Shown here piece after piece: positions 350 through 15,385 of a stretch of 64,000 bases of DNA. The stretch lies in contig JAKSLF010000007.1 of NCBI GenBank assembly GCA_024401355.1, positions 34,858 through 98,857 of the forward strand. The letters run 5' to 3'. Position 1 is the first letter of the stretch. Every line of letters starts with the position of its first letter. A program made the position numbers and the translations under genes. The DNA comes from Bacteroidales bacterium. Its GTDB lineage: Bacteria; Bacteroidota; Bacteroidia; Bacteroidales; Marinilabiliaceae. The notes beneath the pieces are model-generated. The model did no database searches, had not been told where the DNA came from, and was given only the letters and a program-made list of their open reading frames with translations.

Positions 350-375
350 GGCAATTATATAGGAGTTGACCCCTA
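350..375 (+). repeat. Left terminal inverted repeat of element 1
   Basis: Begins GGCAATTATATAG at 350. The reverse complement of 3567-3592 gives the same 26 bases without mismatch. Confidence 0.92.
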
Positions 376-388
376 ATAATCAAAAGCA

Positions 389-420
389 AAGACATAGCAA
401 CGTATTGTATACTATGTCTT
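389..420 (-). terminator. Hairpin after the BspA-like gene
   Basis: AAGACATAG (389-397) pairs with CTATGTCTT (412-420). It lies 25 bp past the stop of the minus-strand repeat-protein gene and keeps its transcription inside the element. Confidence 0.6.
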
Positions 421-444
421 CGTTGTATTATTGTGTTAATGATG

Positions 445-1617
445 TTATCCTTGATAGACTTCAACAGACCATCCTTCTGGAATGTAGCTTCCTCCACGTC
501 TCATATCATTCCATTGTGCGTTAGGTGACTTATAGAATGTACCGTCACTTGAAACATTGTTTAACCAAAAGAATGTGTAAGAGAATAAGTCACTACCTTC
601 ATATAAGCAAGTGATTGATTGTAGTTTTTTACAGTCGCTAAACATACTACAGTAGCAATTATCAACGAGTGTAGTAGCAGACAATTTAGGTGCGGTTATA
701 AGGCTCGTGCAACCATGGAACATATAATCGTAGCAAAACGAGGCGAGTGTAGTAGCAGGCAATTCAGGTGCGTTTACAAGGCTTGAACAATTAAGGAACA
801 TACTACCATAGCAATACGAGGCGAGTGTAGTAGCATACAATTTAGGTGCAGTTATAAGGCTCGTACAATTGGCGAACATGTCACGGCAACAACCTTCAGC
901 AACTGTAGTAGCAGACAATTTAGGTGCAGACACAAGGTTTGAACAACCATTGAACATACCATTGTAACAACTTTTAGTAAGTGTAGTAGCAGGCAATTCA
1001 GGTGCGTTTACAAGGCTCGTACAATTATAGAACATACAATTGTAACAACTTTCAGTAAGTGTAGTAGCAGACAATTTAGGTGCAGACACAAGGTTTGAAC
1101 AACCAATGAACATATTACCGTAGCAACAATCACAAGGTATAGTGTCTAAATCCTTTGTATAAGATAGCAAATACATGATGTCGCCCTTACAAGATACTTC
1201 ATCGCCTCTCATTTTAAATGAAGCACATTTACTTAAAGACTTATTTATTCCATTTGGATTATCACCTCTTACATATAATGGACTATCAGCAGAAATGCTT
1301 TGTGTAGCATAAACATTGCTTCCGTCGTTCCAAGTCTCCCAAGTCTTACCATCTCTACTTATTTCAAAATTTGGGTAGCTTCCTTTGGAAGACAATCCAA
1401 CAGTTGCATCGCCTTCAGTTGTGAATTTCAGTGCTTTTACAGTCAAAACTTCATCATTGTCTTCAGTCTCTTCGTTTTCATTCTTCAATCTTCCCTTCCA
1501 TCTGACTTCACTTTTGTCTTCGTCATTGAAATGAGCAAGAAATGCGTCATATGACATGAGAACATTCTCTTCTGAAGAATATCCTTCACGTGTTCCAAAA
1601 TGCTTGATGTATTTCAT
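445..1617 (-). CDS. BspA-like leucine-rich-repeat passenger protein of element 1
   Basis: A 390-residue protein without a signal peptide. Residues 1-60 form an acidic N-terminal segment (MKYIKHFGTREGYSSEEN...). A middle domain with PNFEISRDGKTWETWNDG follows. From about residue 165 there are seven 26-residue repeats of the pattern CYxxMFxxCTSLVxAPxLPATTL, then a C-terminal cap ending FYKSP...IPEGWSVEVYQG. The repeats belong to the BspA/LRR_5 type, known mostly from binding proteins. It is transcribed away from the transposase. The first ~220 nt are almost identical to the passenger of element 2 and then identity collapses. Its function in a transposon is unknown; without a secretion signal it may act inside the cell or be a captured binding module. 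Confidence 0.85.
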   Translation of the reverse strand: MKYIKHFGTREGYSSEENVLMSYDAFLAHFNDEDKSEVRWKGRLKNENEETEDNDEVLTVKALKFTTEGDATVGLSSKGSYPNFEISRDGKTWETWNDGSNVYATQSISADSPLYVRGDNPNGINKSLSKCASFKMRGDEVSCKGDIMYLLSYTKDLDTIPCDCCYGNMFIGCSNLVSAPKLSATTLTESCYNCMFYNCTSLVNAPELPATTLTKSCYNGMFNGCSNLVSAPKLSATTVAEGCCRDMFANCTSLITAPKLYATTLASYCYGSMFLNCSSLVNAPELPATTLASFCYDYMFHGCTSLITAPKLSATTLVDNCYCSMFSDCKKLQSITCLYEGSDLFSYTFFWLNNVSSDGTFYKSPNAQWNDMRRGGSYIPEGWSVEVYQG

Positions 1618-1674
1618 AGGTACAATAGGTCTTTTATTATATTTATCTGAATTTCTTGATTTATTTCTTTGGTG

Positions 1675-1708
1675 TGCAGAAATACTGCATAGACGAAATC
1701 TAAATTTG
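1675..1708 (+). promoter_or_regulatory. Divergent promoter/operator region of element 1
   Basis: TGCAGAAATACTGCA (1675-1689) is an inverted repeat with 5-bp arms. TAAATTTG (1701-1708) is a perfect TAnnTTTG -7 box about 28 bp before the transposase start. On the other strand TATTTCTG inside the palindrome resembles a -7 box for the repeat-protein gene. The region is almost unchanged in element 2 (13610-13726). Confidence 0.55.
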
Positions 1709-1735
1709 TACTATAATCTTAAAAGGTAGTACGCT

Positions 1736-2746
1736 ATGATAGACTTCTCGAAATTCAAATCTCTGTTCTCCGTAATGAACTACTTTCACGATGAGCAGAT
1801 GTGCAAACAGACACTTGCAGATGCTCGTTGGAATGGTGACGTTGTCTGCCCTTACTGTGGAAAGCACCACTGCTCTACAAGAAAGAACGGAAGATACAGA
1901 TGCAACAAGTGCAAGAAGAACTTTTCAGTGTTGGTCGGTACTATCTTTGAGAATACCAAACTCCCACTATACAAGTGGTTCGTTGCTATGTACTTGATTT
2001 CTTCACACAAAAAAGGCGTGTCATCTTGTCAGTTGAGCAGAGACATAGAGGTCAGTCAAGCGACTGCTTGGTACATGTTGCAGAAGATAAGACTCTTGTA
2101 TCCGCAGAATGATAGTGAACGCATGAGATGTGTTGTTGAATGTGATGAGGTCTATATAGGTGGCAAGGAGAAGTGGAAACATCAGTCAATGAGAACACCT
2201 CATACTCAAGGTAGGTCAACTGCAACAAAAGTACCAGTGTTCGGTATGCTTGAACGCTCAAGGTATATAGATGACAAAGGAGTTGAAAGGCAGATGACCT
2301 ATGTTCATGCTATGGCAGTAGATAAAACAGACAAATCTACTCTTCAACCTATCATAGAGCAGTTCGTTGACAAGGGTTCATTGATTATGACTGATGAGCT
2401 TAGTGCATACAAGGGTCTTGACAAGTTAGGTTATAGACATTGGATAGTAAGACATAGCGAAGCAGAATATGTAAAGAAGACCAATGTGGATGAAATCAAG
2501 GAAGGTGACCCAATAGATATATTCACCAATTCAATAGAGGGTTTTTGGAGCCACTTTCGAAGAATGATAGTAGGTTGCTACCATAATGTAACTGATGAGC
2601 ATTTGCAGTCGTATATTGACGAAGCAGTCTATAGATGGAACACAAGAAAGATGACTGAAGACGAAAGATTTGAGCATATGTTCAATCTTTCAATAGGATT
2701 GGTTATTACTTGGAATGATTTGAAGTCATGTGAATATGTTGCATAG
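1736..2746 (+). CDS. IS1595-family (ISXO2-like) transposase
   Basis: A 336-residue DDE transposase that moves element 1. An N-terminal zinc ribbon has CPYCGKHHC and CNKCKK (about residues 38-63). The catalytic core shows ECDEVYIGGKEKW, IMTDELSAYKG and FTNSIEGFWSHFRR, which fit the acidic residues and Asn-rich third motif of DDE_Tnp_IS1595. Length is normal for the family, with no frameshift or stop, so it is probably active. It is about 90% identical to the copy at 12626-13609; a nine-residue insertion before DPIDIFTNS and the C-terminus differ. The start ATG at 1736 is shared in sequence context with the other copy. A gene of unknown function follows after 50 bp on the same strand. Confidence 0.93.
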   Translation: MIDFSKFKSLFSVMNYFHDEQMCKQTLADARWNGDVVCPYCGKHHCSTRKNGRYRCNKCKKNFSVLVGTIFENTKLPLYKWFVAMYLISSHKKGVSSCQLSRDIEVSQATAWYMLQKIRLLYPQNDSERMRCVVECDEVYIGGKEKWKHQSMRTPHTQGRSTATKVPVFGMLERSRYIDDKGVERQMTYVHAMAVDKTDKSTLQPIIEQFVDKGSLIMTDELSAYKGLDKLGYRHWIVRHSEAEYVKKTNVDEIKEGDPIDIFTNSIEGFWSHFRRMIVGCYHNVTDEHLQSYIDEAVYRWNTRKMTEDERFEHMFNLSIGLVITWNDLKSCEYVA

Positions 2747-2796
2747 AACGCTATATTTTATAAAGTGTTGGAATAAATAAAGAAAAATAGAAGAAT

Positions 2797-3504
2797 ATGG
2801 ATTTATATAGTAGATTAAATGAAGCAATACGTAATGCGATACAAGAAGCATTAGAATGTAATGATGATATTAATCATAGAGTGACGAAATTAAAATCTGC
2901 ATTAAGAACATCACAACAATATGCCATCAATGAAATTGGACATCGTTTGGCAACCCGTCCCATGGGAATTAACATGTGTGCAGATAATAAGATTGATAAA
3001 GGGAATGACGTGTACATTGCTAAAAATGGGAAGCAAACATCATTAGATGACATAAGAGAAAAATCTAGTAAGATTTCTTACGACATTTTAACTCAAGGAG
3101 TCAAAGACAACATAGGAGATAGTTTAGTGCTGAATTTTGGTAGACCCGAAGTTGATAGAACAACAAGTAGTGTGAGATTTGTATTTGATAAGATGCGTTT
3201 ACTAACTGACAAGAGATTTGTAATGGAAGGATTTGTCACGACTTCAAGAAGCCCCAATCCTTTAGGTTCCAAAAAGCCTAAACGCATCCAAATAGACTAT
3301 TTATGGAACGAACAACAATTTTATGAAGCGGTTTATTGTGCGAATGGTTCAGTACGACACTTAGCAAAATTGAAACTAAATCAAAATGGAGTTCGTGGTC
3401 AAGACAATATCACGACGGCTTGTAATCTAATAGGGTTCTTAACCCAATGCTTATATTGTATCGACGATTATCTTGATGATATTGCTAATAATAGACATAT
3501 ATAA
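2797..3504 (+). CDS. Passenger protein of element 1, unknown function
   Basis: A 235-residue soluble protein I do not recognise. It starts MDLYSRLNEAIRNAIQEAL, predicted helical. The genes in the same position of elements 2 and 3 also begin with a short helix of similar pattern (MDLAKKIESRIKTVLYEV in element 2). After that opening it is unrelated to them and lacks their PHFH motif. The rest is mixed alpha/beta with a basic loop (GSKKPKRIQ) and an acidic C-terminus (CIDDYLDDIANN). It is probably co-transcribed with the transposase (50-bp gap) and ends before a strong hairpin. It may help transposition or be cargo; the sequence does not decide. Confidence 0.75.
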   Translation: MDLYSRLNEAIRNAIQEALECNDDINHRVTKLKSALRTSQQYAINEIGHRLATRPMGINMCADNKIDKGNDVYIAKNGKQTSLDDIREKSSKISYDILTQGVKDNIGDSLVLNFGRPEVDRTTSSVRFVFDKMRLLTDKRFVMEGFVTTSRSPNPLGSKKPKRIQIDYLWNEQQFYEAVYCANGSVRHLAKLKLNQNGVRGQDNITTACNLIGFLTQCLYCIDDYLDDIANNRHI

Positions 3505-3522
3505 TCTGAAAATCATACAAAG

Positions 3523-3557
3523 ATGAAGAGATGTATTATTAGTGTACATCTCTTCAT
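3523..3557 (+). terminator. Terminator at the right arm of element 1
   Basis: ATGAAGAGATGTA (3523-3535) pairs perfectly over 13 bp with TACATCTCTTCAT (3545-3557). It follows the passenger stop by 18 bp and lies just inside the right inverted repeat. Confidence 0.75.
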
Positions 3558-3566
3558 TTATTATAT

Positions 3567-3592
3567 AAGGGGTCAACTCCTATATAATTGCC
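3567..3592 (-). repeat. Right terminal inverted repeat of element 1
   Basis: Exact reverse complement of 350-375, followed directly by the target duplication. Confidence 0.92.
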
Positions 3593-3600
3593 TATATTTA
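3593..3600. repeat. 8-bp target-site duplication, right copy (element 1)
   Basis: TATATTTA, identical to 342-349. Confidence 0.93.
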
Positions 3601-3701
3601 TTCATGCGGTATCCCTATGGTATCCTTATGGGAAAATCATGGAACTGGAAACGGGTGCTAATGTTAAAAATGTGCATGTGCGAAAAAATACTATAAATAT
3701 A

Positions 3702-3738
3702 GTTGGTGCTTTGGAATTAATGTACTACATTTGTAGTA
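3702..3738 (+). promoter_or_regulatory. blaI promoter with overlapping BlaI operator
   Basis: TACTACATTTGTAGTA (3723-3738) is a perfect 7+7 bp palindrome with a TT centre and matches the known BlaI/MecI operator type. Inside it, TACATTTG (3726-3733) is a perfect TAnnTTTG -7 box, with GTTG 20 bp upstream (3702-3705). BlaI bound here would block the promoter, implying autoregulation of blaI and the following protease gene. Confidence 0.8.
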
Positions 3739-3764
3739 TCAAAAAAGAATTAAACAAGAAAGAA

Positions 3765-4139
3765 ATGGGAAAAGAGAAAAATACACAGTCACTTACAAAG
3801 GCAGAACTTCATCTTATGAACATCTTGTGGGACAAGGGACAGGCAACAGTTCAGCAGCTGCATGATGTACTTGATGAGCCCAAGCCGGCTTATACTACAA
3901 CACTCACCGTGATGCAGGTTTTAGCAAAGAAGGGTATAGTGACCTTTGAGAAGTCGGGCAAGGCAAATGTCTACAAGCCACTACTCAGTCGAGACACATA
4001 CATTGGGTCGTTTATGAATGAGACGTGTGAAAATGTTTTTGGTGGTTCGATGCGTTCGTTCTTTTCATTTTTTGCTAAAAGCGAGAAGATCAGCAAGGAA
4101 GAACTTGTTGAGATTTTGAAAGAGATGGCAAAAGAGTAG
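3765..4139 (+). CDS. blaI: BlaI/MecI/CopY-family transcriptional repressor
   Basis: A 124-residue winged-helix repressor. The first half (KAELHLMNILWDKGQATVQQ, then TTTLTVMQVLAKKGIVTFEKSG) is the BlaI DNA-binding domain; the second half is the helical dimerisation part ending EELVEILKEMAKE. The start at 3765 (MGKEKNTQS) is chosen over an upstream in-frame ATG because the latter would place the operator and promoter inside the coding region. The gene is followed after 33 bp by the BlaR1-like protease, the usual partner that inactivates BlaI upon a signal. No beta-lactamase is nearby, so the regulated function is probably something else. Confidence 0.92.
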   Translation: MGKEKNTQSLTKAELHLMNILWDKGQATVQQLHDVLDEPKPAYTTTLTVMQVLAKKGIVTFEKSGKANVYKPLLSRDTYIGSFMNETCENVFGGSMRSFFSFFAKSEKISKEELVEILKEMAKE

Positions 4140-4172
4140 AGTATATAATTGTTTAACCCTAATACCATAGAT

Positions 4173-6893
4173 ATGACTATATTGTATGTAAAATTTCTGG
4201 TTTCTATGGCTTTGTTCATGGCGTTCTACTGGGTAGTACTGAGAAACAAAGCTGGTTATGGCTTTAGAAGAGCATATTTGTTGGCAGCGCCGATAGTGTG
4301 TGTCTTGATGAGTACACTTGCTTTTGGTGTGTATCCGGTTGAAGTAGAGCCTGAGGAAATGGCTTATGCGAGTGACTTGGTGGCTGCTCCTGTAGTGGGG
4401 AAACCTGCTGATGTTGTCGTGATGAGCGAACGAGTGCCGGTGAAGATGTCGAACGAAGTGGTGGAGCCTGTAGTGGAAGACTCGTGGAGTTGGTCTGACA
4501 TTGACTGGTCGGCAGTTGTCGGTTACCTGGTTCCGGCGATATCGTTGATACTTCTGCTTGTTGCACTTTTTTATTTTGTGAAGCTCGTTGTTATTAAATC
4601 ACGGATGAGGTCGGAGATGACAGAAGAGGGATATGAGATTATCCGTTCGTCGTCGGTAAAAACTCCGTTTTCGTTTGCCAAGACAATATTTTGTCCGTCG
4701 GACCTTGACGAGAACAGCGAAAGTCTGATAATGCGTCATGAGAAGGCGCATATAGCTCATCGTCATTATGTTGATGTGTGGGTGATAGAAGTGTTGACAC
4801 GAGTGTTCTGGTTCAATCCGCTTATATGGCTTTGTCGCTCGGAATTGCGTGATGTGCATGAATTTGAGGCTGACCATGATGTGATAGCTAGTGGTGCCAG
4901 CATATTAAAGTATCAGACAACGCTTCTGGAGATGGTGTTGAACGAGAATTGTCCGGTAGTAAATGGATTTAGCCATTCGTTTATACGACGTCGATTTATA
5001 GAGATGAAGACATCGGCAGCTGGTACTTTGGGTCGTGTGGCAAAGATAGGTGTTTTTGTGTGGGCTGCGGCATTGTTCTGTATGTTTACGTTTGAGGAAT
5101 GTGCTCCGAAAACATCAGACAAAGTGAAGCTTGACCTGGATGCACCCCAAAAATTTGTTTTAGAAGGAACCGTTGATGCAGGGATAACGGACTCGTGTTA
5201 TCTTGTATATATATCAGATGAATACTTGCACATACCAGACACGACAGACATTTGTATACCAGTAGTGGACAAGAAATTTCACTTTGAGATGGATTTGCAG
5301 CGAGTGACAGCGGCACGAGTGCGATGCATATTTCCTGGTGGTGAAGTGTGTAGCGCCTTTATAGACTATTTCATGGTGCCTGGTGAAACACTATACTTGA
5401 ACGTGCATAATGGATACTATGACTTCAGGGCAACAGACGGATTTAATTCGAAGATAGAGCGTGGAATGGAGGCTTTGAGAAAAATGACAAACTGGGAGTC
5501 GCCACATTTGCCTAAATTTGACTGCCCGATGTGGAGTAATCCATCGCAGGTGAGCAGAGATTACAGTCGTCTGCATGTCAAGGATGTCTATTTTGACAAG
5601 GATGAGACAGTTGTCAGACTGGTGTCGGACCAGCATACTGCGAATATGAATATTCCGAGCACATTTTTCCTTAAAGACAACAAAGGAAACGCATATAAAT
5701 TCAAGCGAGCTGTAATGGGAAATGTTGAAGATAACAATGGCAAGGAGTGCCGTGCGTATGGTGTGTATCTGGCATACGAACCTATGCCGGCAGATGTTGA
5801 ATCGTTCAACATAATGTGCCCGTCATCTGATAATAGTGAAATTGTCTGGATAGAGAATGTGAGGAAAGCGTCGAGCATGGATAACCTGAAGCCTAACTTT
5901 GAATTGACGATTACGACAGAGAGTGGCATTGATGATTCGGGTTATCTGATAAGGATGTTTAATGTTGATGGGTATTCGGCAACGCAGATAGCGGACTTGA
6001 CAAATGACAGGAATCGTCAGTCGCATTTTGCGATGAACCTTGATGAGACGAAGACGATTGAAGTGGTTGCGACATATCCAGATGGTTCGATAAGTCAACG
6101 TGGCATGGTGTTCCCATTTGTGCCAGGAGAAAGGGCTGAACTGAAAGTCATGGGTGACAGATTTGAGTTGACGGGAACAGGATTCTACAAGGAGTGGGCG
6201 AAGGCGGATGAGGCAGTTGAAAATCTGACGAGATATGCGTCGGGTGAAGAACAGTCGGAAAAGCTGAAAGCATATTATAAGGATCATGCGGACAATCTTG
6301 GTGTCGTGGTTTATTTCATGATGCATAGAAACCTTGTTTCAATGGATGATGTTATTGAGAACATGCCAGAAGCAATCGGGGCAGATGAGTTTGTGAAGAA
6401 GGCAAAGGAACGTTATCAGGCAGAAAAGCAGTCGTTGGCTGCGTATGAAGCAGAGAGGGCGTTGAGACAGAAAGACACCCAGCCGGGCATGATGTTCAAG
6501 GATTTTGCTGTAAAGTATGAAGGCAAGACTCAGAGGTTGTCGGACTATGTCGGCAAGGGAAAATATGTGCTTGTTGACTTCTGGGCCAGCTGGTGTGGAC
6601 CATGTCGCATGGAGACTCCTAATGTCATCAAGGTGTGGGAGAAATATGCTGGCAATAGATTTGAAGTGGTTGGCATAGCTACGTGGGATGAACCAGAAGA
6701 TACCAAGAGAGCCATTGAGGAAGAGGGAATAAAATATCCTCAGATAATGAATGCTCAGTCGGTGGCAAGCGACTTATATGGTGTGATGGGAATACCGGAA
6801 TTTATCCTTTTCGGTCCTGACGGCAAGATTGTAGAACGAGGAATGCGTGGTGAAGAGATTGAGCTGGCAGTAAAGAAAGCGCTTGGTGAATAA
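4173..6893 (+). CDS. BlaR1-like M56 metallopeptidase fused to DUF4369-like domains and a TlpA thioredoxin domain
   Basis: A 906-residue membrane protein. Residues 1-170 hold about four transmembrane segments. RHEKAHIAHRH (near residue 188) contains the HExxH zinc motif, and EFEADHD supplies the third ligand as in BlaR1/MecR1. A further hydrophobic segment lies near residue 300. The next ~450 residues contain two similar beta-rich segments (TVDAGITDSCYLVYI, TTESGIDDSGYLIRM) resembling the DUF4369 domain in front of Bacteroidetes thioredoxins. The last 140 residues are a TlpA/ResA-like redoxin with FWASWCGPCRMETPN. The start at 4173 (MTILYVKF) skips eight codons without hydrophobic character. 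A protease that de-represses blaI combined with a thioredoxin suggests envelope redox or thiol sensing; that role is inference. Confidence 0.88.
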   Translation: MTILYVKFLVSMALFMAFYWVVLRNKAGYGFRRAYLLAAPIVCVLMSTLAFGVYPVEVEPEEMAYASDLVAAPVVGKPADVVVMSERVPVKMSNEVVEPVVEDSWSWSDIDWSAVVGYLVPAISLILLLVALFYFVKLVVIKSRMRSEMTEEGYEIIRSSSVKTPFSFAKTIFCPSDLDENSESLIMRHEKAHIAHRHYVDVWVIEVLTRVFWFNPLIWLCRSELRDVHEFEADHDVIASGASILKYQTTLLEMVLNENCPVVNGFSHSFIRRRFIEMKTSAAGTLGRVAKIGVFVWAAALFCMFTFEECAPKTSDKVKLDLDAPQKFVLEGTVDAGITDSCYLVYISDEYLHIPDTTDICIPVVDKKFHFEMDLQRVTAARVRCIFPGGEVCSAFIDYFMVPGETLYLNVHNGYYDFRATDGFNSKIERGMEALRKMTNWESPHLPKFDCPMWSNPSQVSRDYSRLHVKDVYFDKDETVVRLVSDQHTANMNIPSTFFLKDNKGNAYKFKRAVMGNVEDNNGKECRAYGVYLAYEPMPADVESFNIMCPSSDNSEIVWIENVRKASSMDNLKPNFELTITTESGIDDSGYLIRMFNVDGYSATQIADLTNDRNRQSHFAMNLDETKTIEVVATYPDGSISQRGMVFPFVPGERAELKVMGDRFELTGTGFYKEWAKADEAVENLTRYASGEEQSEKLKAYYKDHADNLGVVVYFMMHRNLVSMDDVIENMPEAIGADEFVKKAKERYQAEKQSLAAYEAERALRQKDTQPGMMFKDFAVKYEGKTQRLSDYVGKGKYVLVDFWASWCGPCRMETPNVIKVWEKYAGNRFEVVGIATWDEPEDTKRAIEEEGIKYPQIMNAQSVASDLYGVMGIPEFILFGPDGKIVERGMRGEEIELAVKKALGE

Positions 6894-6968
6894 GATTAAT
6901 AGTAATATAGAATAGAGGTTTTTTTAGTGTCAATCATTTGTAAAACGCATATAAGCACAATGTGAATG

Positions 6969-7003
6969 AAAGAGGTTCGCTACGAAAAGTGGCGAACCTC
7001 TTT
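6969..7003 (+). terminator. Terminator after the blaI-protease operon
   Basis: AAAGAGGTTCGC (6969-6980) pairs with GCGAACCTCTTT (6992-7003), a 12-bp perfect stem ending in T residues. Confidence 0.8.
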
Positions 7004-7071
7004 TCGCTTTGGAGAAAAATGATTAATTTTGCAGAAAAAGTTAGTGGCATAAAGAAATAGGAGAAAAAGTC

Positions 7072-7584
7072 ATGACAAAGCATGATATAAATGTTTTGGG
7101 CAAGGAAAATGCCTTTGATCTTATAAGCAAACAGTGGATGCTTGTTACAGCAGGTGAAGAAGGGAAATATAACACCATGACAGCATCGTGGGGCGGTATA
7201 GGATGGTTGTGGAACAAGCCAGTGGCATTCCTTTTTATACGTCCTGAACGCTATACACATGAATTTATTGAAGCCAATGACCGCTTGACTTTGTCGTTCT
7301 TTGCAGAGGAATATAGAAAAGCATTGCAGATATGCGGTAGCAAGTCGGGTCGTGACACAGACAAAGCCAAGGAGGCTGGTATAACCCCTGTCGCATTGGA
7401 GAGTGGTGCAGTAACATTTGGTGAAGCTCGCATGACACTCGACTGTCGCAAATTGTTCAAGGTCGACATGAAAGCAGCAAACTTTGTTGACAAGGAGGTG
7501 TTCACACGCTGGTATAACGAGAACCCTGGCGGTGGACTTCATTCGGTTTATGTCGTTGAGATAGAAAACGTATATACAAAATAA
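7072..7584 (+). CDS. Flavin reductase family protein
   Basis: A 170-residue cytosolic protein of the flavin reductase (split-barrel FMN-binding) type. NTMTASWGGIGWLWNKP is the typical FMN-contact strand and turn, followed by FIRPERYTHEFIE and LTLSFF. Such proteins bind FMN and pass electrons to partners; the substrate cannot be read from the sequence. It is first in a compact run with a NifX-like protein (14-bp gap) and an LrgA/LrgB pair, so the four may be co-transcribed. The length is normal and no lesions are seen. Confidence 0.87.
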   Translation: MTKHDINVLGKENAFDLISKQWMLVTAGEEGKYNTMTASWGGIGWLWNKPVAFLFIRPERYTHEFIEANDRLTLSFFAEEYRKALQICGSKSGRDTDKAKEAGITPVALESGAVTFGEARMTLDCRKLFKVDMKAANFVDKEVFTRWYNENPGGGLHSVYVVEIENVYTK

Positions 7585-7598
7585 AAAAAAGACAACAG

Positions 7599-7985: not shown

Positions 7986-7988
7986 ACA

Positions 7989-8336
7989 ATGATACGTCAA
8001 TGTGTGATAATATTCGGTTGTCTGGCGATAGGTGAGCTGATAGTATGGCTTACAGGCATAGGCATACCAAGCAGCATAATCGGCATGTTGCTTCTGACCG
8101 TGCTGCTTCAGTTTAAGGTTGTTAAGCTTGAGTGGGTTAAGGGCGTGTCGGATTTTCTGATATCAAACCTTGGGTTGTTTTTTGTGCCGCCAGGAGTGGC
8201 TCTTATGCTTTATTATGACGTCATAGCGTCGGAGTGGTTGCCTATAACAGTTGCAACCATTGTGAGCACAGTTATTGTATTGGTTGTCACAGGATGGACA
8301 CATCAAATATTCAAGAACGATGGAGATAGTAAGTAA
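7989..8336 (+). CDS. CidA/LrgA family holin-like membrane protein
   Basis: A 115-residue protein with four hydrophobic segments: VIIFGCLAIGELIVWLTG, then IIGMLLLTVLLQFK, then LFFVPPGVALMLYYDV and TVATIVSTVIVLVVTG. The FFVPPGVALM stretch is the family signature. CidA/LrgA proteins form holin-like oligomers that influence murein hydrolase export and, with LrgB, have also been linked to small-acid (pyruvate) transport. The gene overlaps lrgB by 17 bp, the usual pair arrangement. Confidence 0.9.
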   Translation: MIRQCVIIFGCLAIGELIVWLTGIGIPSSIIGMLLLTVLLQFKVVKLEWVKGVSDFLISNLGLFFVPPGVALMLYYDVIASEWLPITVATIVSTVIVLVVTGWTHQIFKNDGDSK

Positions 8337-9012
8337 CAGCATAGTACTTTTTGCTTTGACATTTGGTGTCTTCTATGGGTCGCGACAGTTGCAGAAGAAG
8401 ACAGGATGGGTAGTGCTGAACCCCGTGCTTGTGACCATAGTGGTACTGATAGCATTTCTGCAGTTGACAGGAGTGAGCTATGAGACATATTCGAAAGCAG
8501 GAGCGCAGATAGACTTCTGGCAGAAGCCTGCTATAGTGGCATTGGCGGTGCCTTTGTATCAGCATCTGAAGCAGATAAGAAAGCAGTTTCTGCCGATATT
8601 CCTTTCTCAGCTTGTAGGTTGTGTTTTGGGTGTTGTGAGTGTAGTGCTGATAGCGCAGATGATGGGTGCATCGCGAGAAGTGATAATATCATTGGCTCCG
8701 AAATCGGTGACAACACCAATAGCCATGGAAGTTTGTACCTCATTGGGTGGAATACCGGCCTTGACCGTAGCGATAGTTGTGATTGCCGGATTGTTGGGAG
8801 CCGTATTTGGTTTTAAAGTACTTGAGGTATGGCATGTCAAGAATCCGTTTTCGCAGGGTCTGAGCATGGGAACAGCATCTCATGCTCTTGGTACGACACG
8901 AGCAATGGAAAAGGGTGAGACATTCGGGGCGTATGCTTCGCTGGGATTGATACTTAACGGAGTGCTGACAGCCGTTTTTGCACCGATGATTCTCAGGCTG
9001 ATGGGAATATAG
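8320..9012 (+). CDS. LrgB/CidB family membrane protein
   Basis: A 230-residue polytopic membrane protein starting MEIVSNSIVLFALTFG. The family signature SLAPKSVTTPIAMEV is present, followed by GLSMGTASHALGTTRAME. The start at 8320 inside the 3' end of lrgA fits translational coupling; a longer start at 8275 would add charged residues read from lrgA coding sequence and is unlikely. It probably works with the preceding LrgA in murein hydrolase control or small-organic-acid transport. A terminator is not evident before the GH10 gene. Confidence 0.9.
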   Translation: MEIVSNSIVLFALTFGVFYGSRQLQKKTGWVVLNPVLVTIVVLIAFLQLTGVSYETYSKAGAQIDFWQKPAIVALAVPLYQHLKQIRKQFLPIFLSQLVGCVLGVVSVVLIAQMMGASREVIISLAPKSVTTPIAMEVCTSLGGIPALTVAIVVIAGLLGAVFGFKVLEVWHVKNPFSQGLSMGTASHALGTTRAMEKGETFGAYASLGLILNGVLTAVFAPMILRLMGI

Positions 9013-9107
9013 TAGCTTGTGTTGTTACTATGTGTAGAATTATTGGTAATTTTTATACATAAATTCACTTTTGCCCTATAAAGTTATGATTTGATATCAA
9101 TAAAGGT

Positions 9108-9115
9108 TAAATTTG
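9108..9115 (+). promoter_or_regulatory. -7 promoter box of the GH10 gene
   Basis: TAAATTTG matches TAnnTTTG, 26 bp before the start codon. The nearest upstream TTTG (9090-9093) is only 14 bp away, so the -33 element is non-ideal and an activator may be needed. Confidence 0.45.
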
Positions 9116-9141
9116 CATAGTCATCAAAAAATCAAATCATA

Positions 9142-11853
9142 ATGATAAAACCTATACTCTTTTCAGCATTATGTCTGTCGGTGGCTGGCAATGTATGTGC
9201 CCAGTTGTCGAGCAATCCTGATAAGTTTCTTGGTAACATAACGACGCGTGGTCAAGTCAATGGTACTGGCTATGAGTATTCGTCATTATGGAACCAGATA
9301 ACTCCGGAAAACGAATCAAAATGGCAGTCGGTCGAATGGACACGTGATGTCTACACATGGGATGGTTGTGACAATGCCTACAACTATGCCAAGAAGAATA
9401 ATTTCCCATTCAAATTTCATACATTAGTATGGGGTTCTCAGTATCCGAATTGGATGGACGGCTTGTCGAAAGAAGAGCAGTTTGAGGAAATTGTTGAATG
9501 GATGGATGCCGTCAAGGAACGTTATCCGGACCTTCAGATGATAGACGTCGTAAATGAGGCCATAGTAGGTCATGCTCCGGCTCCATATAAGGAAGCTCTT
9601 GGTGGTGACGGAAAGACAGGATATGACTGGATAATCAAAGCCTTTGAGATGGCGGCAGAACGTTGGCCGGATGCAATCCTTATATATAACGACTACAACA
9701 CATTCCAGTGGCAGAAATCTGAATTTATTGATCTGGTCAAGACCATCCGAGATGCAGGTGCGCCAATCGACGCATACGGATGTCAGTCGCATGACCTTAC
9801 AGATATAGACTTCAATACCTTTAAGGCATCTATGGAAGAGATACAGGATGCACTTCAGATGCCGATGTATAGTACAGAATATGACATAGGTACGGAAAGC
9901 GACACAAAGCAGGAGACGCAGTATAAGAACCAGATAAAGTACATGTGGGAGCAGGAATATGTTGCCGGTGTTACATTATGGGGATTCATATATGGTGCGA
10001 CATGGACAACAGATGGTAATTCTGGCATCATAAAGGATGGCAAAGAACGTCCGGCGATGACATGGCTGAAAGAATATATGGCAACAGAAGAAGCCAAGAC
10101 AGCCAAGAGTCCATTCCCAGGAATGAAGAAAGAAGCGTCGGTCTATGTCAAGCCACAGGCACTCAATCTGACAATAGGCGAAGAGTCTTCAGTTGCCGTC
10201 AATGCGCGACTTGCCAGCAAGACCATCGAAAAAATAGAGCTTTATATAAACGACGAACTTTCAGCAACCTTGAAAGAGGCTCCATATACTGCCAAGTTTA
10301 CGCCAGAGAAGCTTGGTGAGACAAGTATAAAAGCTGTAGTCTATGCAACAGACGGATCGTCTTACACCCGTATGTCGGGAGTCAACGTCAATCCTCCAAG
10401 AAGACCATTCAAGGATGAGATGGCAGTTTTGCCAGGCATTATCGAAGCCGAAGACTTCGATGAGGGAGGTGATGGAGTAGCATTCCACGACTCGAACAAG
10501 ATAAAGGAAGGTACAGGTGCCTCATATCGTGAAGATGGTGGAGTTGACATCGAGAAGGGCAATGGCGGTTATGTACTTGGCTATACTCTTTCGGGTGAAT
10601 GGACAGAATATACAGTCGATGTAAAAGAGGCTGGATATTATGACTTTGAGGCGTATGTCTCTTCTAGCTCCGACAACTCGACATTTAGCATCGATCTTAG
10701 TGATGCAGATGGCCTGACAAGCATAGCAAAGGATATAGTAGTTCCAAACAAGGGATGGAATACATACAGCAATATCCATGGTCGATCGGCCATAAAGCTT
10801 GAAGAGGGTGTACAGCGTCTGCGCATCACAATCGGCAGTGGCAGCAGCTATGTCTGCAACATTGACAAGATAGCCATGACGCGTGTCGATCTGAATGAAG
10901 ATATTAAGATAGACGTTGACATAGATGTAGAAACAGCAACAGTCGGAACCGCCTTCTTCATCAAAGCGAAAGCTTCGTGTGAGGCAGTTGACATCAAGTC
11001 GGTTACAATATACATCAATGGCGTTGCTCAAGAAGCATTGACAGCGGCTCCATTTGAGATGAAGTACACTCCATCGGTTGATGGTGTCCTAGACATTACG
11101 GCTGTGGCTACAGATGCGGATGGCAAAGTGTCTGTTGTAGCAGAGAAGAACGTCGTAGTCAACAAGAAGCGAGAGCCATTCAAGAGTGTCATAACGGTAC
11201 CAGGAACTATAGAAGTAGAAAACTTCGACAAGGGAGGTGAAGGATTGACATTCCACGACTCGGACAGCAACGACGAAGGCAATGCAGGATTCCGCAACGA
11301 CAATGAGGGCGTTGACATCGTGAAATGCACAGGTGGCTATGCGTTGGGTTATACAGCAACAGGTGAGTGGCTGGAATATACGATCAACGTAACAGTTGCA
11401 GCAGAATACAACTACGAGACCGTTGTAGCTTCTGGTGCTGACAACTCAGGCTTCAAGATATCGCTTGTCAAGGATGGCGAATTGACAGACCTGACAGACA
11501 AGATAACGGTTCCAAATGGTGGAACGTGGGATGTATATACGACACTCAAGGGCACTTTGAAGAAGAAACTTGAAGTAGGCCAGCAGACCATACGTGTCAC
11601 CATTATGTCGCCATACGTCAACATCGACAACATAAAGCTTATCAGCAATGTCAACGATGGAATTGAAGAGATAGTATGTGATACGGAAGCCGTTTACGAA
11701 GCTTATACACTTACAGGAGTCTTGGTTGGTAAAGTCGAGGCATCAGGTTTGGCGGACCTTCAGCAGAAGATGCACAAGATGGTTGGCAAGCGTGGACTTT
11801 ATGTCATCAAGAATGTGGTGAACGGCAATTCTATGAAGATGATGATCAAGTAG
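9142..11853 (+). CDS. Modular endo-1,4-beta-xylanase: GH10, Ig-like, CBM6, Ig-like, CBM6, C-terminal sorting tail
   Basis: A 903-residue secreted enzyme. The signal peptide ends near GNVCAQ. The GH10 barrel spans about residues 20-315, with acid/base Glu in DVVNEA (~138) and nucleophile Glu in YSTEYDIG (~246); WNQITPENESKW and FHTLVWGSQYP are family motifs. After it come an Ig-like domain (~330-420), a CBM6-type module (AEDFDEGGDG...SGEWTEYTVDV, ~427-580), a second Ig-like domain and a second CBM6 (~680-836). The last ~65 residues resemble the C-terminal sorting domain of Bacteroidetes secretion systems. It would cut the xylan backbone outside the cell, supplying oligosaccharides for the GH43/GH8/GH3 enzymes at 40-48 kb. 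Confidence 0.93.
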   Translation: MIKPILFSALCLSVAGNVCAQLSSNPDKFLGNITTRGQVNGTGYEYSSLWNQITPENESKWQSVEWTRDVYTWDGCDNAYNYAKKNNFPFKFHTLVWGSQYPNWMDGLSKEEQFEEIVEWMDAVKERYPDLQMIDVVNEAIVGHAPAPYKEALGGDGKTGYDWIIKAFEMAAERWPDAILIYNDYNTFQWQKSEFIDLVKTIRDAGAPIDAYGCQSHDLTDIDFNTFKASMEEIQDALQMPMYSTEYDIGTESDTKQETQYKNQIKYMWEQEYVAGVTLWGFIYGATWTTDGNSGIIKDGKERPAMTWLKEYMATEEAKTAKSPFPGMKKEASVYVKPQALNLTIGEESSVAVNARLASKTIEKIELYINDELSATLKEAPYTAKFTPEKLGETSIKAVVYATDGSSYTRMSGVNVNPPRRPFKDEMAVLPGIIEAEDFDEGGDGVAFHDSNKIKEGTGASYREDGGVDIEKGNGGYVLGYTLSGEWTEYTVDVKEAGYYDFEAYVSSSSDNSTFSIDLSDADGLTSIAKDIVVPNKGWNTYSNIHGRSAIKLEEGVQRLRITIGSGSSYVCNIDKIAMTRVDLNEDIKIDVDIDVETATVGTAFFIKAKASCEAVDIKSVTIYINGVAQEALTAAPFEMKYTPSVDGVLDITAVATDADGKVSVVAEKNVVVNKKREPFKSVITVPGTIEVENFDKGGEGLTFHDSDSNDEGNAGFRNDNEGVDIVKCTGGYALGYTATGEWLEYTINVTVAAEYNYETVVASGADNSGFKISLVKDGELTDLTDKITVPNGGTWDVYTTLKGTLKKKLEVGQQTIRVTIMSPYVNIDNIKLISNVNDGIEEIVCDTEAVYEAYTLTGVLVGKVEASGLADLQQKMHKMVGKRGLYVIKNVVNGNSMKMMIK

Positions 11854-11880
11854 AACAATTTGGTCATAGAATATTAAGAC

Positions 11881-11911
11881 AAAGGAGGGGCTTGGGGCTC
11901 CTCCTTTTTTT
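11881..11911 (+). terminator. Terminator of the GH10 gene
   Basis: AAAGGAGG (11881-11888) pairs with CCTCCTTT (11900-11907) and runs into a T stretch. Confidence 0.8.
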
Positions 11912-11929
11912 GTTGGGGCAAGCGGATTT

Positions 11930-11973
11930 ATGTCTGGCTCATGTCTGGCTTATGTCTAGCTCATGTCTGGCTT
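11930..11973. repeat. Four tandem copies of an 11-bp repeat
   Basis: Units ATGTCTGGCTC, ATGTCTGGCTT, ATGTCTAGCTC and ATGTCTGGCTT follow each other without gaps, between the GH10 terminator and the insertion point of element 2. Confidence 0.85.
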
Positions 11974-11981
11974 GGTTGTTA

Positions 11982-11989
11982 TATTTTTT
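11982..11989. repeat. 8-bp target-site duplication, left copy (element 2)
   Basis: TATTTTTT, repeated exactly at 14862-14869. Confidence 0.92.
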
Positions 11990-12013
11990 GGCAATTATAT
12001 AGCAGTTGACCCC
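11990..12013 (+). repeat. Left terminal inverted repeat of element 2
   Basis: Starts GGCAATTATATAGC; the first 24 bases match the reverse complement of 14838-14861 exactly. Confidence 0.9.
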
Positions 12014-12067
12014 TAATTATAGATTAGTAGGAAATCAATTACTATGTAATCAACTTTCAGTAGCGGT

Positions 12068-12514
12068 TTAATTGCAGTATTCTTCGTCTATTTCATTGGT
12101 TGGGTTGCAGTCGTTCCATGCGTTTATCATACGTTGCAAATTTGTAAGTCCAAATGCTTTCTTAGGTACTTCATATAACCAATCGTTTATACGTTTCTTC
12201 ACGTTAGTAACACCATTCCACGTTTTCGGATGATTCCCTTTTGTCCTCCATATTATAAGTTGGTCTATATGTTTAAACTGTATCTCAAGTTCAATTTTTC
12301 CATTATCTATGTTTACATGAAAATGTGGTGTCTTTGTTCCTTGCTCGTCATTTTCACCATAAACCAATATTTTAGTATTGTTGGGTATATTGTCAGATGG
12401 TCTTGATATTGTCGCCATCTCGTCAATACGATGCATTTTTAAAAATTCTGCATTATCTATTACTTCATATAATACAGTTTTTATGCGAGATTCTATCTTT
12501 TTTGCTAAGTCCAT
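12068..12514 (-). CDS. PHFH-motif passenger protein of element 2
   Basis: A 148-residue protein starting MDLAKKIESRIKTVLYEV. A central segment has TPHFHVNIDNGKIELEIQ followed by KTWNGVTNVKKRINDWLYE. The PHFHV core recalls DUF4160-like small proteins found in some toxin-antitoxin contexts, but the match is only a motif. The remnant element 3 has a clearly similar gene (PHFHI, same downstream layout). The start at 12514 is preferred over an upstream ATG at 12592 because the homologues begin here. It lies 111 bp behind the transposase and is likely co-transcribed with it. Function unknown; it replaces the unrelated 235-residue protein of element 1. Confidence 0.7.
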   Translation of the reverse strand: MDLAKKIESRIKTVLYEVIDNAEFLKMHRIDEMATISRPSDNIPNNTKILVYGENDEQGTKTPHFHVNIDNGKIELEIQFKHIDQLIIWRTKGNHPKTWNGVTNVKKRINDWLYEVPKKAFGLTNLQRMINAWNDCNPTNEIDEEYCN

Positions 12515-12625
12515 AGTTATTATTGTTTTTATGTTATTTATCTGTTGTTTTAAAATCAACATCATATCAACTAACACCATCATATATGACACAACGTATT
12601 ACCGTAGTTGTCCTTTGAAAAACGT

Positions 12626-13609
12626 CTATGCACACAATCTTAAATCATTCCAAGTAACAACAAGTCCGACCGACAAGTTGAACATATGCTCAAATCTTTC
12701 GTCTTCAGTCATCTTCCTTGTGTTCCAACGATAGACAGCTTCGTCAATATACGACTGCAAATGCTCTTCAGTTACATTGTGGTAGCATCCCACTATCATA
12801 CGTCTAAAGTGGCTCCAAAAGCCCTCTATAGAGTTTGTGAATATGTCAATTGGGTCATTATCAGTCTTATTAACAAACTCTGCTTCACCATGCTTCACTA
12901 CTCTATGAAAGTAACCTAGCTTATCAATACCCTTGTATGCACTTAGTTCATCGGTCATAATCAATGAACCCTTGTCAACGAACTGCTCGATTATAGGTTG
13001 TAAAGTAGCCTTATCAGTCTTCTCAACTATCATTGCATGAACGTATGTCATTGGTCTTTCAACACCATTATCATCTACGTATGTTGTTCTTTCAAGCATA
13101 CCAAACACGGGTACTTTCGTTGCAGTTGACCTACCTTGAGTGTGTGGGGTACGCATAGACTTATGCTTCCACTTCTCCTTGCCACCTATATACACTTCAT
13201 CACACTCTATAACACCACTCATTCGCTCACTATCATTTTGAGGATATAGTAATCTTATCTTCTGCAACATGTACCAAGCGGTAGCTTGACTGACCTCTAT
13301 GTCTCTACTCAACTGACATGATGATACGCCTTTCTTGTGTGATGAAATCAGATACATAGCAACGAACCACTTGTATAATGGGAGTTTAGTGTTCTCAAAG
13401 ATAGTGCCCACCAATACTGAAAAGTTCTTCTTGCACTTGATGCATCTATATCTGCCGTTCTTTCTCTTTGAGCAGTGGTGCTTTCCGCAGTAAGGGCAGA
13501 TAACATCACCATTCCAACGTGCATCTGCAAGTGCATCCTTGCACATCTGCTCGTCACGGAAGAAGTTCATCACGGAGAACAGAGATTTGAATTTTGAGAA
13601 GTCTATCAT
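12626..13609 (-). CDS. IS1595-family (ISXO2-like) transposase
   Basis: A 327-residue DDE transposase with the zinc ribbon CPYCGKHHC / CIKCKK and catalytic motifs ECDEVYIGGKEKW, IMTDELSAYKG, FTNSIEGFWSHFRR. It is intact and close to the copy in element 1, differing mainly by a shorter stretch before DPIDIFTNS and a C-terminus ending NDLRLCA. The start ATG at 13607-13609 follows the same conserved leader. Expression is likely driven from the divergent promoter shared with the repeat-protein gene. Confidence 0.93.
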   Translation of the reverse strand: MIDFSKFKSLFSVMNFFRDEQMCKDALADARWNGDVICPYCGKHHCSKRKNGRYRCIKCKKNFSVLVGTIFENTKLPLYKWFVAMYLISSHKKGVSSCQLSRDIEVSQATAWYMLQKIRLLYPQNDSERMSGVIECDEVYIGGKEKWKHKSMRTPHTQGRSTATKVPVFGMLERTTYVDDNGVERPMTYVHAMIVEKTDKATLQPIIEQFVDKGSLIMTDELSAYKGIDKLGYFHRVVKHGEAEFVNKTDNDPIDIFTNSIEGFWSHFRRMIVGCYHNVTEEHLQSYIDEAVYRWNTRKMTEDERFEHMFNLSVGLVVTWNDLRLCA

Positions 13610-13655
13610 AGCGTACTACCTTTTAAGATTATAGTACAAATTTAGATTTAGTCTA

Positions 13656-13670
13656 TGCAGTATTTCTGCA
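13656..13670. promoter_or_regulatory. Palindrome in the divergent promoter of element 2
   Basis: TGCAGTATTTCTGCA is the same inverted repeat as at 1675-1689 in the opposite orientation. TATTTCTG within it is a near-consensus -7 box toward the repeat-protein gene; CAAATTTA (13637-13644) is the -7 box of the transposase on the minus strand. Confidence 0.5.
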
Positions 13671-13726
13671 CACCAAAAAATAAATCAAGAAATTCAGATA
13701 AATATAATAAAAGACCTATTGTACCT

Positions 13727-14770
13727 ATGAAATACATCAAGCATTTTGGAACACGTGAAGGATATTCTTCAGAAGAGAATGTTCTCATGTCATATGACGC
13801 ATTTCTTGCTCATTTCAATGACGAAGACAAAAGTGAAGTCAGATGGAAGGGAAGATTGAAGAATGAAAACGAAGAGACTGAAGACAATGATGAAGTTTTG
13901 TCTGTAAAAGCACTGAAATTCACAACAGATGATGAAATTGAAATAGGATTAATATGTAATGATACATATCCTAATTTTGAGATAAGTCGTGATGGAAAGA
14001 ATTGGAAAACATGGAATGATGGGAATAATAAATATGAAAAACAGACTATAAATCAAGGAGACGTTTTATATGTAAGAGGAAACAATCCTAGTGGAATCAC
14101 TACGGTACATTACAGAAGTGCTAGTTTCTCTTCAAATTCAGCAAATGAAAATAGCAAGTTGTTTTGTGAAGGTAATATAATGCATTTATTGTCTTATACA
14201 GAAGATTTAGATGTGATACCTTGTGATAATTGTTTTAAAAGCATGTTTCGCGGTTGTACGCACCTTGTGAAAGCACCAAATCTTCCTGCTACTACGATAA
14301 CGACAAATTGTTACACCTTGATGTTCGCGGATTGTGTAAATCTTGTAGATGTTCCTAAAGTATTACCTGCTACTACAATCTATGACCAATGTTATTATTC
14401 TATGTTCCAAAATTGTACAAGCCTTATTGAAGCGCCATACCTTCCTGCGACTATATTAGCATCACAATGTTACAGCCTTATGTTCCAAGGTTGTTCAAGC
14501 CTTGTTAAAGCCCCAAATCTTATTGCTACAACACTCGCAGAAGGATGCTACACTTCAATGTTCAGAAATTGCACAAGTCTTAGTGAAATCATATGTTTAT
14601 ACGAAAAAACTGACTTGTTCAAATATAGTTATACTACAAATTGGTTGTATGATGTATGTTCACAAGGTATATTCTACAAATCTCCTCATTTGAATTTGGT
14701 ACTTGAGTCTTATCAATATAATGGTTCAAAGGTTCCAAGTGGTTGGATAATTCAAAACTACGAAGGATAA
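13727..14770 (+). CDS. BspA-like leucine-rich-repeat passenger protein of element 2
   Basis: A 347-residue protein, no signal peptide. The N-terminal ~70 residues match the element 1 passenger almost exactly. Then the sequence diverges: a related PNFEISRDGKNWKTWNDG domain, five repeats of the CYxxMFxxCTSLVxAPxLPATTL type (26 residues, one with 27) instead of seven, and a cap ending FYKSPH...VPSGWIIQNYEG. The start at 13727 corresponds to that of element 1; an upstream in-frame ATG at 13655 would run through the promoter palindrome. The role of the repeat domain is unknown, probably protein or glycan binding. Confidence 0.85.
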   Translation: MKYIKHFGTREGYSSEENVLMSYDAFLAHFNDEDKSEVRWKGRLKNENEETEDNDEVLSVKALKFTTDDEIEIGLICNDTYPNFEISRDGKNWKTWNDGNNKYEKQTINQGDVLYVRGNNPSGITTVHYRSASFSSNSANENSKLFCEGNIMHLLSYTEDLDVIPCDNCFKSMFRGCTHLVKAPNLPATTITTNCYTLMFADCVNLVDVPKVLPATTIYDQCYYSMFQNCTSLIEAPYLPATILASQCYSLMFQGCSSLVKAPNLIATTLAEGCYTSMFRNCTSLSEIICLYEKTDLFKYSYTTNWLYDVCSQGIFYKSPHLNLVLESYQYNGSKVPSGWIIQNYEG

Positions 14771-14789
14771 AACTTTTAAGAAATCGTAT

Positions 14790-14825
14790 ATGGGATGTGT
14801 GATAAGCGAAACACATCCCATTTTT
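14790..14825 (+). terminator. Terminator at the right arm of element 2
   Basis: ATGGGATGTGT (14790-14800) pairs over 11 bp with ACACATCCCAT (14811-14821), followed by T residues. Confidence 0.75.
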
Positions 14826-14837
14826 CAAAAACATATT

Positions 14838-14861
14838 GGGGTCAACTGCTATATAATTGCC
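14838..14861 (-). repeat. Right terminal inverted repeat of element 2
   Basis: Reverse complement of 11990-12013, next to the duplication TATTTTTT. Confidence 0.9.
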
Positions 14862-14869
14862 TATTTTTT
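14862..14869. repeat. 8-bp target-site duplication, right copy (element 2)
   Basis: TATTTTTT, identical to 11982-11989. Confidence 0.92.
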
Positions 14870-14936
14870 AGGGAACTATAACTCAGTTGGCACAAACCTA
14901 ATAGAAATCTATAAAAATGTATTGACAACTATTGTT

Positions 14937-15359: not shown

Positions 15360-15385
15360 AAGTTTTTTTCTATTATTTATTTCAT

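Follow-up and report, generated by a model that had tools for sequence, protein, structure and literature searches.

The stretch of DNA analyzed here (the window, 64,000 nucleotides of contig JAKSLF010000007.1 from the Bacteroidales assembly GCA_024401355.1, positions 34,858 to 98,857 of the forward strand) contains two intact transposons of the IS1595 family, at 350-3592 (copy 1) and 11990-14861 (copy 2), which on base-by-base reading have a common gene plan. Copy 1 has 24-bp terminal inverted repeats at 350-373 (plus strand) and 3569-3592 (minus strand) and is flanked by the 8-bp target duplication TATATTTA at 342-349 and 3593-3600, and copy 2 has its inverted repeats at 11990-12013 (plus strand) and 14838-14861 (minus strand), flanked by the duplication TATTTTTT at 11982-11989 and 14862-14869. 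Within each copy the ends are complementary at 24 of 24 bases, both duplications are exact, and the end sequence differs between the copies by a single base, on which the two arms of each copy agree. A target duplication of 8 bp is the length characteristic of the IS1595 family. The end pattern is far from what chance would produce: base-shuffled phage sequence contained no match to it with up to three mismatches. The genes around the two elements look chromosomal.

In both copies the gene of a repeat protein is divergent from the transposase gene, and a second small gene lies behind the transposase. The two transposases (336 aa, 1736-2746, plus strand, in copy 1; 327 aa, 12626-13609, minus strand, in copy 2) are 88% identical to each other and match the Pfam families DDE_Tnp_IS1595 (PF12762, E 1.2e-39 and 1.5e-40, respectively) and Zn_ribbon_IS1595 (PF12760, E 3.4e-9 and 1e-7) and the NCBIfam IS1595 model (NF033547, E 8.3e-52 and 6.4e-56). 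A preliminary description of the locus, which had recognized two intact IS1595-family transposons from their perfect ends, exact duplications, intact transposase and shared gene plan, is thus fully borne out. Upstream of the copy 1 transposase is the sequence TAAATTTG, a host-type motif according to the consensus TAnnTTTG, which we take to be that of host promoters. In a set of 71 genomes of the family that included the window's own, that genome alone gave a transposase match at E <=1e-70. The copies are ~99% identical in one block, 1430-1747, which takes in codons 1-67 of the repeat protein gene, the promoter region between the two divergent genes and the beginning of the transposase gene. 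Outside it the rest of the transposase is ~86% identical in a gap-free alignment and the repeat bodies less so, so that the window on its own already shows a body that varies behind a start that does not. Confinement of the near-identity to this block may reflect a recent recombination event or an exchange at the divergent promoter and N-terminal module.

The first passenger is a repeat protein of the PARCEL/BspA type, 390 aa long in copy 1 (445-1617, minus strand) and 347 aa, counted from MKYIKHF, in copy 2 (13727-14770, plus strand). Its 78-nt (26-aa) period is real, with five overlapping copies in copy 1, but the BspA-like label that it had been given is weak by family models: LRR_5 scored 18.2 bits in copy 1, below the cut-off of 27.7, and did not match copy 2, and the PARCEL repeat model TIGR02167 (26 residues) scored ~22 bits in both, below its cut-off of 30. 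The protein is homologous to two genes of a virus contig (G072), at 38% over residues 1-334 for one gene and at 52-63% in the repeats. The G072 gene that is matched over the full start (L089:8745-10511) sits between a tape-measure gene and genes for the baseplate hub, tail tube and tail sheath, and the repeat protein of the G072 type is probably a virion surface protein. It could instead be argued that the window protein is a bacterial surface protein in the BspA sense, the product of an adaptive surface gene unrelated to phages, as the PARCEL repeat is known to occur in surface proteins of bacteria and has been linked to mobile elements (PMC2996958; here and below, a citation refers to part of the paper named). 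We consider this highly improbable, in view of the absence, by simple hydropathy, of a hydrophobic signal stretch from residues 1-45 of the copy 1 protein, the finding that its homologues among the loci compared (which did not include a general protein database) are phage genes, one of them in a tail cluster, and the failure to find the repeat protein again elsewhere in the window's own genome (85% complete).

Relatives of the transposase were found at 41 loci in contigs of GTDB genomes, whose titles mostly name Bacteroidales and in many cases the rumen, and at eight loci in IMG/VR virus contigs, and many of these are bounded by GGYAAYNAYATHGNNSTTGRCMCA-like ends and an 8-bp duplication. Screening virus contigs for the end pattern added a further 34 and 5 stretches; the exact pattern of the window-type ends occurred in none of the viral contigs. 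When elements were counted only if their ends stayed within the mismatch limits and at least 7 of the 8 duplicated bases agreed, and duplicates were removed by their first 150 bases, there were 39 non-redundant elements with both ends, 25 with a transposase and 14 without (26 of the 49 transposase loci yielded no counted transposase element). The duplication is exact in 24 of the 25 transposase-bearing and 11 of the 14 transposase-less elements, with a 7/8 match in the remaining one and three, respectively. The 25 include three elements with frame-broken transposase genes (L037, L038, and L040), and one locus, L032, contains a stretch of N. The cassette body of L113 recurs as a second copy in L123. 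Of the transposase-less elements, L038:2951 is on a bacterial-bin contig and the other 13 are on IMG/VR contigs. Two findings go beyond what had been described from the window: virus contigs contain ends of this kind, in many cases with no transposase between them, and a phage tail cluster contains a homologue of the repeat protein.

None of the 25 delimited transposase-bearing elements consists of a transposase only, and even the smallest of them, of 1,513 bp, yet has a 102-aa passenger. The preliminary description had proposed a defined transposon type that carries passengers, and had named copies with the same ends and only a transposase among the findings that would overturn this; a defined type with regular passengers is upheld. 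Its further suggestion of a BspA-type protein as the standard passenger is not: the passenger slot varies, the repeat protein is carried by 2 of the 25 elements, both of them the window copies, and 19 of the 25 carry instead a gene of phage type with the leader sequence described below. A BspA surface adhesin was accordingly rejected as the standard passenger. In L006 the cargo is a different protein, with weak matches to Lcl_C and Fib_succ_major below the cut-offs and a start that by eye is like that of the window protein. Three observations concern relatives in virus contigs. In G072 a transposase-bearing relative at L089:15085-17586, for which an intact target duplication was not found, lies within the phage tail cluster, between tail-tube and tail-sheath genes. 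The same virus contig has a second, more distant IS1595 transposase at L088:9024-10888 (54% to that of the window), and the adjoining gene begins MGDYLKLFSTDAE, by eye like the start of the window repeat protein. The delimited element L120:1684-3595 contains a tagged gene, a TnpB-like open reading frame (ORF; by eye) and a transposase remnant, and represents a mobile element nested inside another in a virus contig.

The leader sequence of the phage-type passengers, MNKKLIRLTESDLHRIVKESVNRILNE or a variant of it (the tag), was recognized by eye in 19 of the 25 transposase-bearing and 10 of the 14 transposase-less elements. Both in these relatives and in the phages it is a short conserved leader on otherwise unrelated proteins. 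A hidden Markov model (HMM) of the tag matched 26 of 28 virus records, with 33 matches in G074 (335 kb) and 21 in G091 (401 kb), and none of 99 genomes of the window's order, although at roughly one genome per family that sample can miss chromosomal copies such as those in the GTDB relatives. The thresholds differed (0.01 for virus records, 1e-6 for genomes), but the best E was <=3.4e-11 in every one of the 26 positive records; the 28 records are part of those behind the 47 virus loci. In the eight first virus records there are 50 tagged ORFs, 40 of which carry it no more than 14 residues from their start. As the HMM was built from peptides ending in LxE, a count of LxE among its matches is partly circular. 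A test free of that selection, in which segments were picked on their first eight residues only, found [LIVMA]xE at one fixed offset in 77 of 90 distinct segments, with the sequences diverging beyond it; a hydrophobic-x-Glu ending of this kind is what cleavage by a gp21-type protease would require.

One of the tag-rich virus contigs, G074, has matches to major head, portal and terminase families, which we presume to be of the T4 type, and a prohead protease of the gp21 type above the cut-off. Its probable scaffold protein, identified by eye, has near its start a similar helix ending in ILNE. (The large ORFs used in the family searches were 10 of 17 in G071, 35 of 44 in G074, and 23 of 30 in G072.) In T4, the capsid targeting sequence is short and N-terminal, is cut after a glutamate by gp21, and brings about the packaging of variable internal proteins; these are injected and can block restriction enzymes (PMC9026906, PMC3012670, PMC12373910). 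Taken together, the distribution of the tag in the virus records, the fixed LxE, the protease of G074 and the analogy with T4 indicate that the tag is most likely a capsid targeting sequence. A short-peptide search of annotated phages gave one match, at E 9, in a 484-kb phage. In this uncultured phage (LR756508.1), several genes in the 49 kb at 160000-209000 (L101) begin MRLTERRLKKIVKEEIDKVLQE or alike, and leaders that end in LxE may therefore be common among huge phages.

Tagged genes also differ from other genes in their upstream sequence. In G071, G072, and G074, TATTTAT occurs within the 70 nt upstream of 15 of 35 tagged genes and 83 of 624 other genes (p 3.5e-5) when tags are assigned by HMM and genes of delimited elements are removed; an earlier tag assignment gave 12 of 23 and 85 of 622. 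In random 70-mers the frequency is 2.65%. The same heptamer precedes genes for the probable scaffold, the protease and a sheath-like protein of G074 (labels partly by eye), and in the flanks of the bacterial-bin loci it lies 12-38 nt ahead of 6 of 257 genes. Within the elements themselves, TATTTAT is upstream of 25 of 29 tagged passengers (25 of 28 in a recheck) and 1 of 29 transposases, against a background of 1.6%, and TAnnTTTG is upstream of none of 29 tagged passengers and 15 of 29 transposases, against a background of 3.5%. These counts derive from 30 hand-listed elements and leave out L006, L032, L036, L047, L049 and both window copies. By this split, host-type signals go with the transposase, and phage-type signals with the tagged passenger.

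A related motif lies upstream of the window passengers. The late promoter consensus of T4 is TATAAATA, with a poorly conserved first T (PMC1524935), and ATAAATA corresponds to its core. This core is found 29 nt before passenger 1 of copy 1 (1640-1646, minus strand), 24 nt before passenger 2 of copy 1 (2773-2779, plus strand), 27 nt before passenger 2 of copy 2 (12535-12541, minus strand) and 29 nt before passenger 1 of copy 2 (13698-13704, plus strand). With the passenger of a relic element described below, ATAAATA lies 21-29 nt ahead of the start in 5 of 5 window passengers (four independent), vs. 2 of 49 other ORFs of the window.

Movement of family members was documented in two ways. One transposase-less cassette body is present in both G071 and G091, with 96% identity over 581 bp, unrelated flanks and different target duplications (TAATAATT and ATTATTTA); both contigs are rich in tags, and G091 also has a phage DNA polymerase family match (phrog_262). 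In addition, the 1,513-bp element of G073 (L094:14686-16198) has an empty counterpart in the virus contig L142, the flanks of which match those in G073 at 96% over 1,307 bp and 84% over 1,178 bp and are joined exactly at a single 8-bp site. These data show that members of the family insert into phage contigs by transposition. The site of the G073 element (at ~10346 in L142) is within an ORF that by eye resembles a homing-endonuclease gene. Empty sites, which the preliminary description had recommended looking for, were therefore recovered for a relative but not for the window: the flank of copy 1 was unmatched in 14 other genomes of the genus, which is why none was found there. Those of two G071 elements gave no exact match either. 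Two of the transposase-less elements, L120 and L129, retain ~30 codons near the transposase 3' end, from which we conclude that they are deletion derivatives.

Many of the elements have a second passenger, and the passengers behave as modules. In 19 elements the tagged gene has another domain fused ahead of the tag in frame, and for the 17 elements with both such a first domain and a second passenger, all 14 pairs of elements with second passengers of the same family also share the first domain, compared with 44 of 136 pairs overall and a result as good in none of 10,000 permutations. (This count drops antisense ORFs of L018 and L026 and trims the linker; before that, it was 15 of 15 pairs in 19 elements.) The passenger pair moves between transposon backbones: the elements L019 and L028 have transposases that are 73% identical and a passenger pair that is 98% and 94% identical, and in L018 and L048 the transposases are 97% identical and the first domains unrelated. 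The co-variation suggests that the two passengers form an interacting two-protein module. Co-varying pairs were seen in L007, L010-L012, L014, L016, L019, L021, L028, L030, L042, L045, L046, and L048, with the second gene divergent and mostly under a host-type motif.

The predicted model of one fusion protein has a folded first domain, the tag helix and a disordered remainder (mean predicted local distance difference test, pLDDT, 63). The linker TENKQYKTNTN before an internal tag (e.g., in L050 and L027) looks like a translated former 5' untranslated region. Searches of Pfam, PADLOC and PDB sequences with the pair returned nothing firm; of two alignments searched against PDB sequences, one gave a weak, probably chance match and the other none. 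A PBECR nuclease of the polyvalent-protein type, considered for L018 and L026, was rejected, as there was no such Pfam match at E 0.1.

The diversity of the passengers and their exchange between backbones (L018/L048; L019/L028) are what would be expected of ordinary passenger capture, in which an IS1595 transposon resident on phages and chromosomes takes up neighboring genes that have no function for the transposon, the passengers being phage-like because the elements often reside in phages. Capture of this kind does not readily explain why no transposase-only element was found among 25, the regularity of the tag, the regular split of upstream motifs between tagged passengers (25/29) and transposases (1/29), or the co-variation of first domain and second passenger, and we consider it unlikely, although it is the strongest of the alternatives. 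We favor instead, with a probability of roughly 0.6, a family of IS1595-type transposons with cargo of virion type, whose members pass between large T4-like Bacteroidales phages and host chromosomes.

In the mechanism that we envisage for such a family, the transposase would be read from a host-type promoter and the passengers from promoters of the phage-late type, so that the latter would be made during virion assembly. By analogy with the T4 capsid targeting sequence, the tag helix ending in LxE would direct entry into the prohead, cleavage by the prohead protease and injection into the next cell; the equivalent window cargo would be a repeat protein of the tail-cluster type and a second small protein with a leader helix. 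The transposon would aid its carrier phage, ride with it to new cells and jump there to the chromosome or to a co-infecting phage, and the transposase-less one-gene cassettes would have arisen by deletion and be moved in trans. Of these steps, we infer late transcription, the packaging or assembly of the cargo, its injection, the benefit to the phage and movement in trans. More tentatively, and at somewhat less than even odds, we suggest that these elements typify a class of "virion-cargo transposons," in which transposons and one-gene cassettes moved in trans would ferry capsid- or tail-targeted proteins from phage to phage via host chromosomes, with a host-controlled transposase and a late-controlled cargo that is packaged and injected.

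The window cargo itself bears on this reading through its second passengers and a neighboring relic. Passenger 2 of copy 1 (2797-3504, plus strand, 235 aa, N-terminal MDLYSRLNEAIRNAIQEALE) was assigned to no family, and that of copy 2 (12068-12514, minus strand, 148 aa) has no match to it; in the predicted model of the latter (mean pLDDT 62), a leader helix is followed by a disordered linker and a small domain. Beside copy 2, at 14871-15860 (minus strand), is the relic of a third, more distant element, with one end-like sequence at 14871, a passenger and transposase fragments; its other end was looked for and not found. The relic passenger (14940-15359), to which passenger 2 of copy 2 is weakly similar (BLASTP E 0.004 in a single comparison), matches the second passenger of L040 (29%, E 6e-10), and this L040 gene is under TATTTAT and beside a tagged gene. 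DUF4160 was tried as an assignment for passenger 2 of copy 2 (the PHFHV passenger), with a match to PF13711 sought at 12071-12514 or 14940-15359, and rejected, as PF13711 had four matches in the genome and none on the window contig. Given the G072 homology and the L040 link on the one side and, on the other, the first copy's second passenger, for which no viral relative was found, a virion role of the window cargo is likely, but less supported than that of its tagged relatives.

Several observations weigh against the family reading. Besides the lack of a relative of copy 1 passenger 2 in the viral contigs, the window copies do not have the RLTESDL tag, and their virion link consists of homology and a 7-base motif. 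No tag was recognized in 6 of the 25 transposase-bearing and 4 of the 14 transposase-less elements, and in the 19 element genes with a domain fused ahead the tag is internal, unlike the N-terminal sequence of T4. A protease of the gp21 type was found in one of eight virus records, and the virus records are metagenome contigs that may be incomplete. Many relatives are on bacterial contigs, where the cargo might serve the cell. TATTTAT, the putative late promoter of the phages studied, is the reverse complement of ATAAATA, for which these phages are not enriched on the sense strand, and it is for this reason that late transcription of the window passengers is something we infer.

Finally, TATTTAT is upstream of only 6 of 28 second passengers, and TAnnTTTG is upstream of 20 of 28. 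A co-varying pair in which the first gene mostly has the phage motif and the second the host motif could also be an anti-phage device, whose late-promoter gene, resident on the chromosome, would be switched on only by an infecting T4-like phage and would poison or load the virions of that phage, while the gene under the host promoter would act as its partner or antidote; several copies are indeed on bacterial contigs, two of them from isolates. We think this improbable, less probable than simple capture, since PADLOC recognized no defense family in nine of ten proteins tested, with one weak NsnC match (1.3e-3) in the tenth, tagged genes in virus contigs occur also without a partner or transposase, and both window passengers carry the late-type motif.

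The elements have counterparts in several known systems. The tIS elements MTnSag1/tISSag10 and tISCpe8 (the latter, by the title of its paper, a lincomycin resistance element) are small, mobilizable IS1595-family transposons that likewise combine a DDE transposase of this family, terminal inverted repeats of ~25 bp, a target duplication and passengers (PMC5704250). The passengers described here differ in that both the genes and the motifs upstream of them are of phage type, and in virus contigs many copies have no transposase. In that respect they resemble miniature inverted-repeat transposable elements and other non-autonomous insertion sequence derivatives, which have ends but no transposase and are presumably moved in trans, and L120 and L129 keep part of the transposase gene; most of the transposase-less elements here, in contrast, carry a complete gene, usually tagged, in virus contigs.

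The T4 internal proteins IPI-III have a short conserved leader cut after glutamate and a hypervariable body and are several per phage (PMC3012670, PMC9026906, PMC12373910), a likeness extended by the gp21-type protease of G074. The tag differs from theirs in sequence and is sometimes internal, and the tagged genes ride transposons with inverted ends and 8-bp duplications. T-even accessory genes form promoter-stem-loop cassettes that are shuffled by homologous recombination at shared regulatory sequences; accessory phage genes are exchanged as modules in both cases, here by transposition with target duplication. A PARCEL repeat protein has been reported in the Vibrio jumbo phage vB_VhaM_pir03 (PMC7765460), and ORFs of this kind are associated with mobile elements (PMC7765460, PMC2996958); the window protein has the same repeat type and differs in lying inside an intact transposon with defined ends. 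Judged by titles and the openings of abstracts in the open-access literature, and by part of a jumbo-phage review (PMC13282480), no description of a transposon with capsid-targeted or virion cargo was found.

These findings address the open question of how large phages gain and trade many small, variable proteins that are injected or associated with the virion. Homologous recombination is the usual answer for the exchange of such proteins among large phages. For the family described here, the defined ends, target duplications, empty site and presence of one cassette in two virus contigs allow exchange to be traced as transposition. The combination of ends, tag and upstream motif provides a searchable mark for candidate injected genes in uncultured gut Bacteroidales phages, and the family is an example of a single mobile element with two sets of regulatory motifs. 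It suggests a new route by which large phages may trade genes for parts or cargo of the virion.

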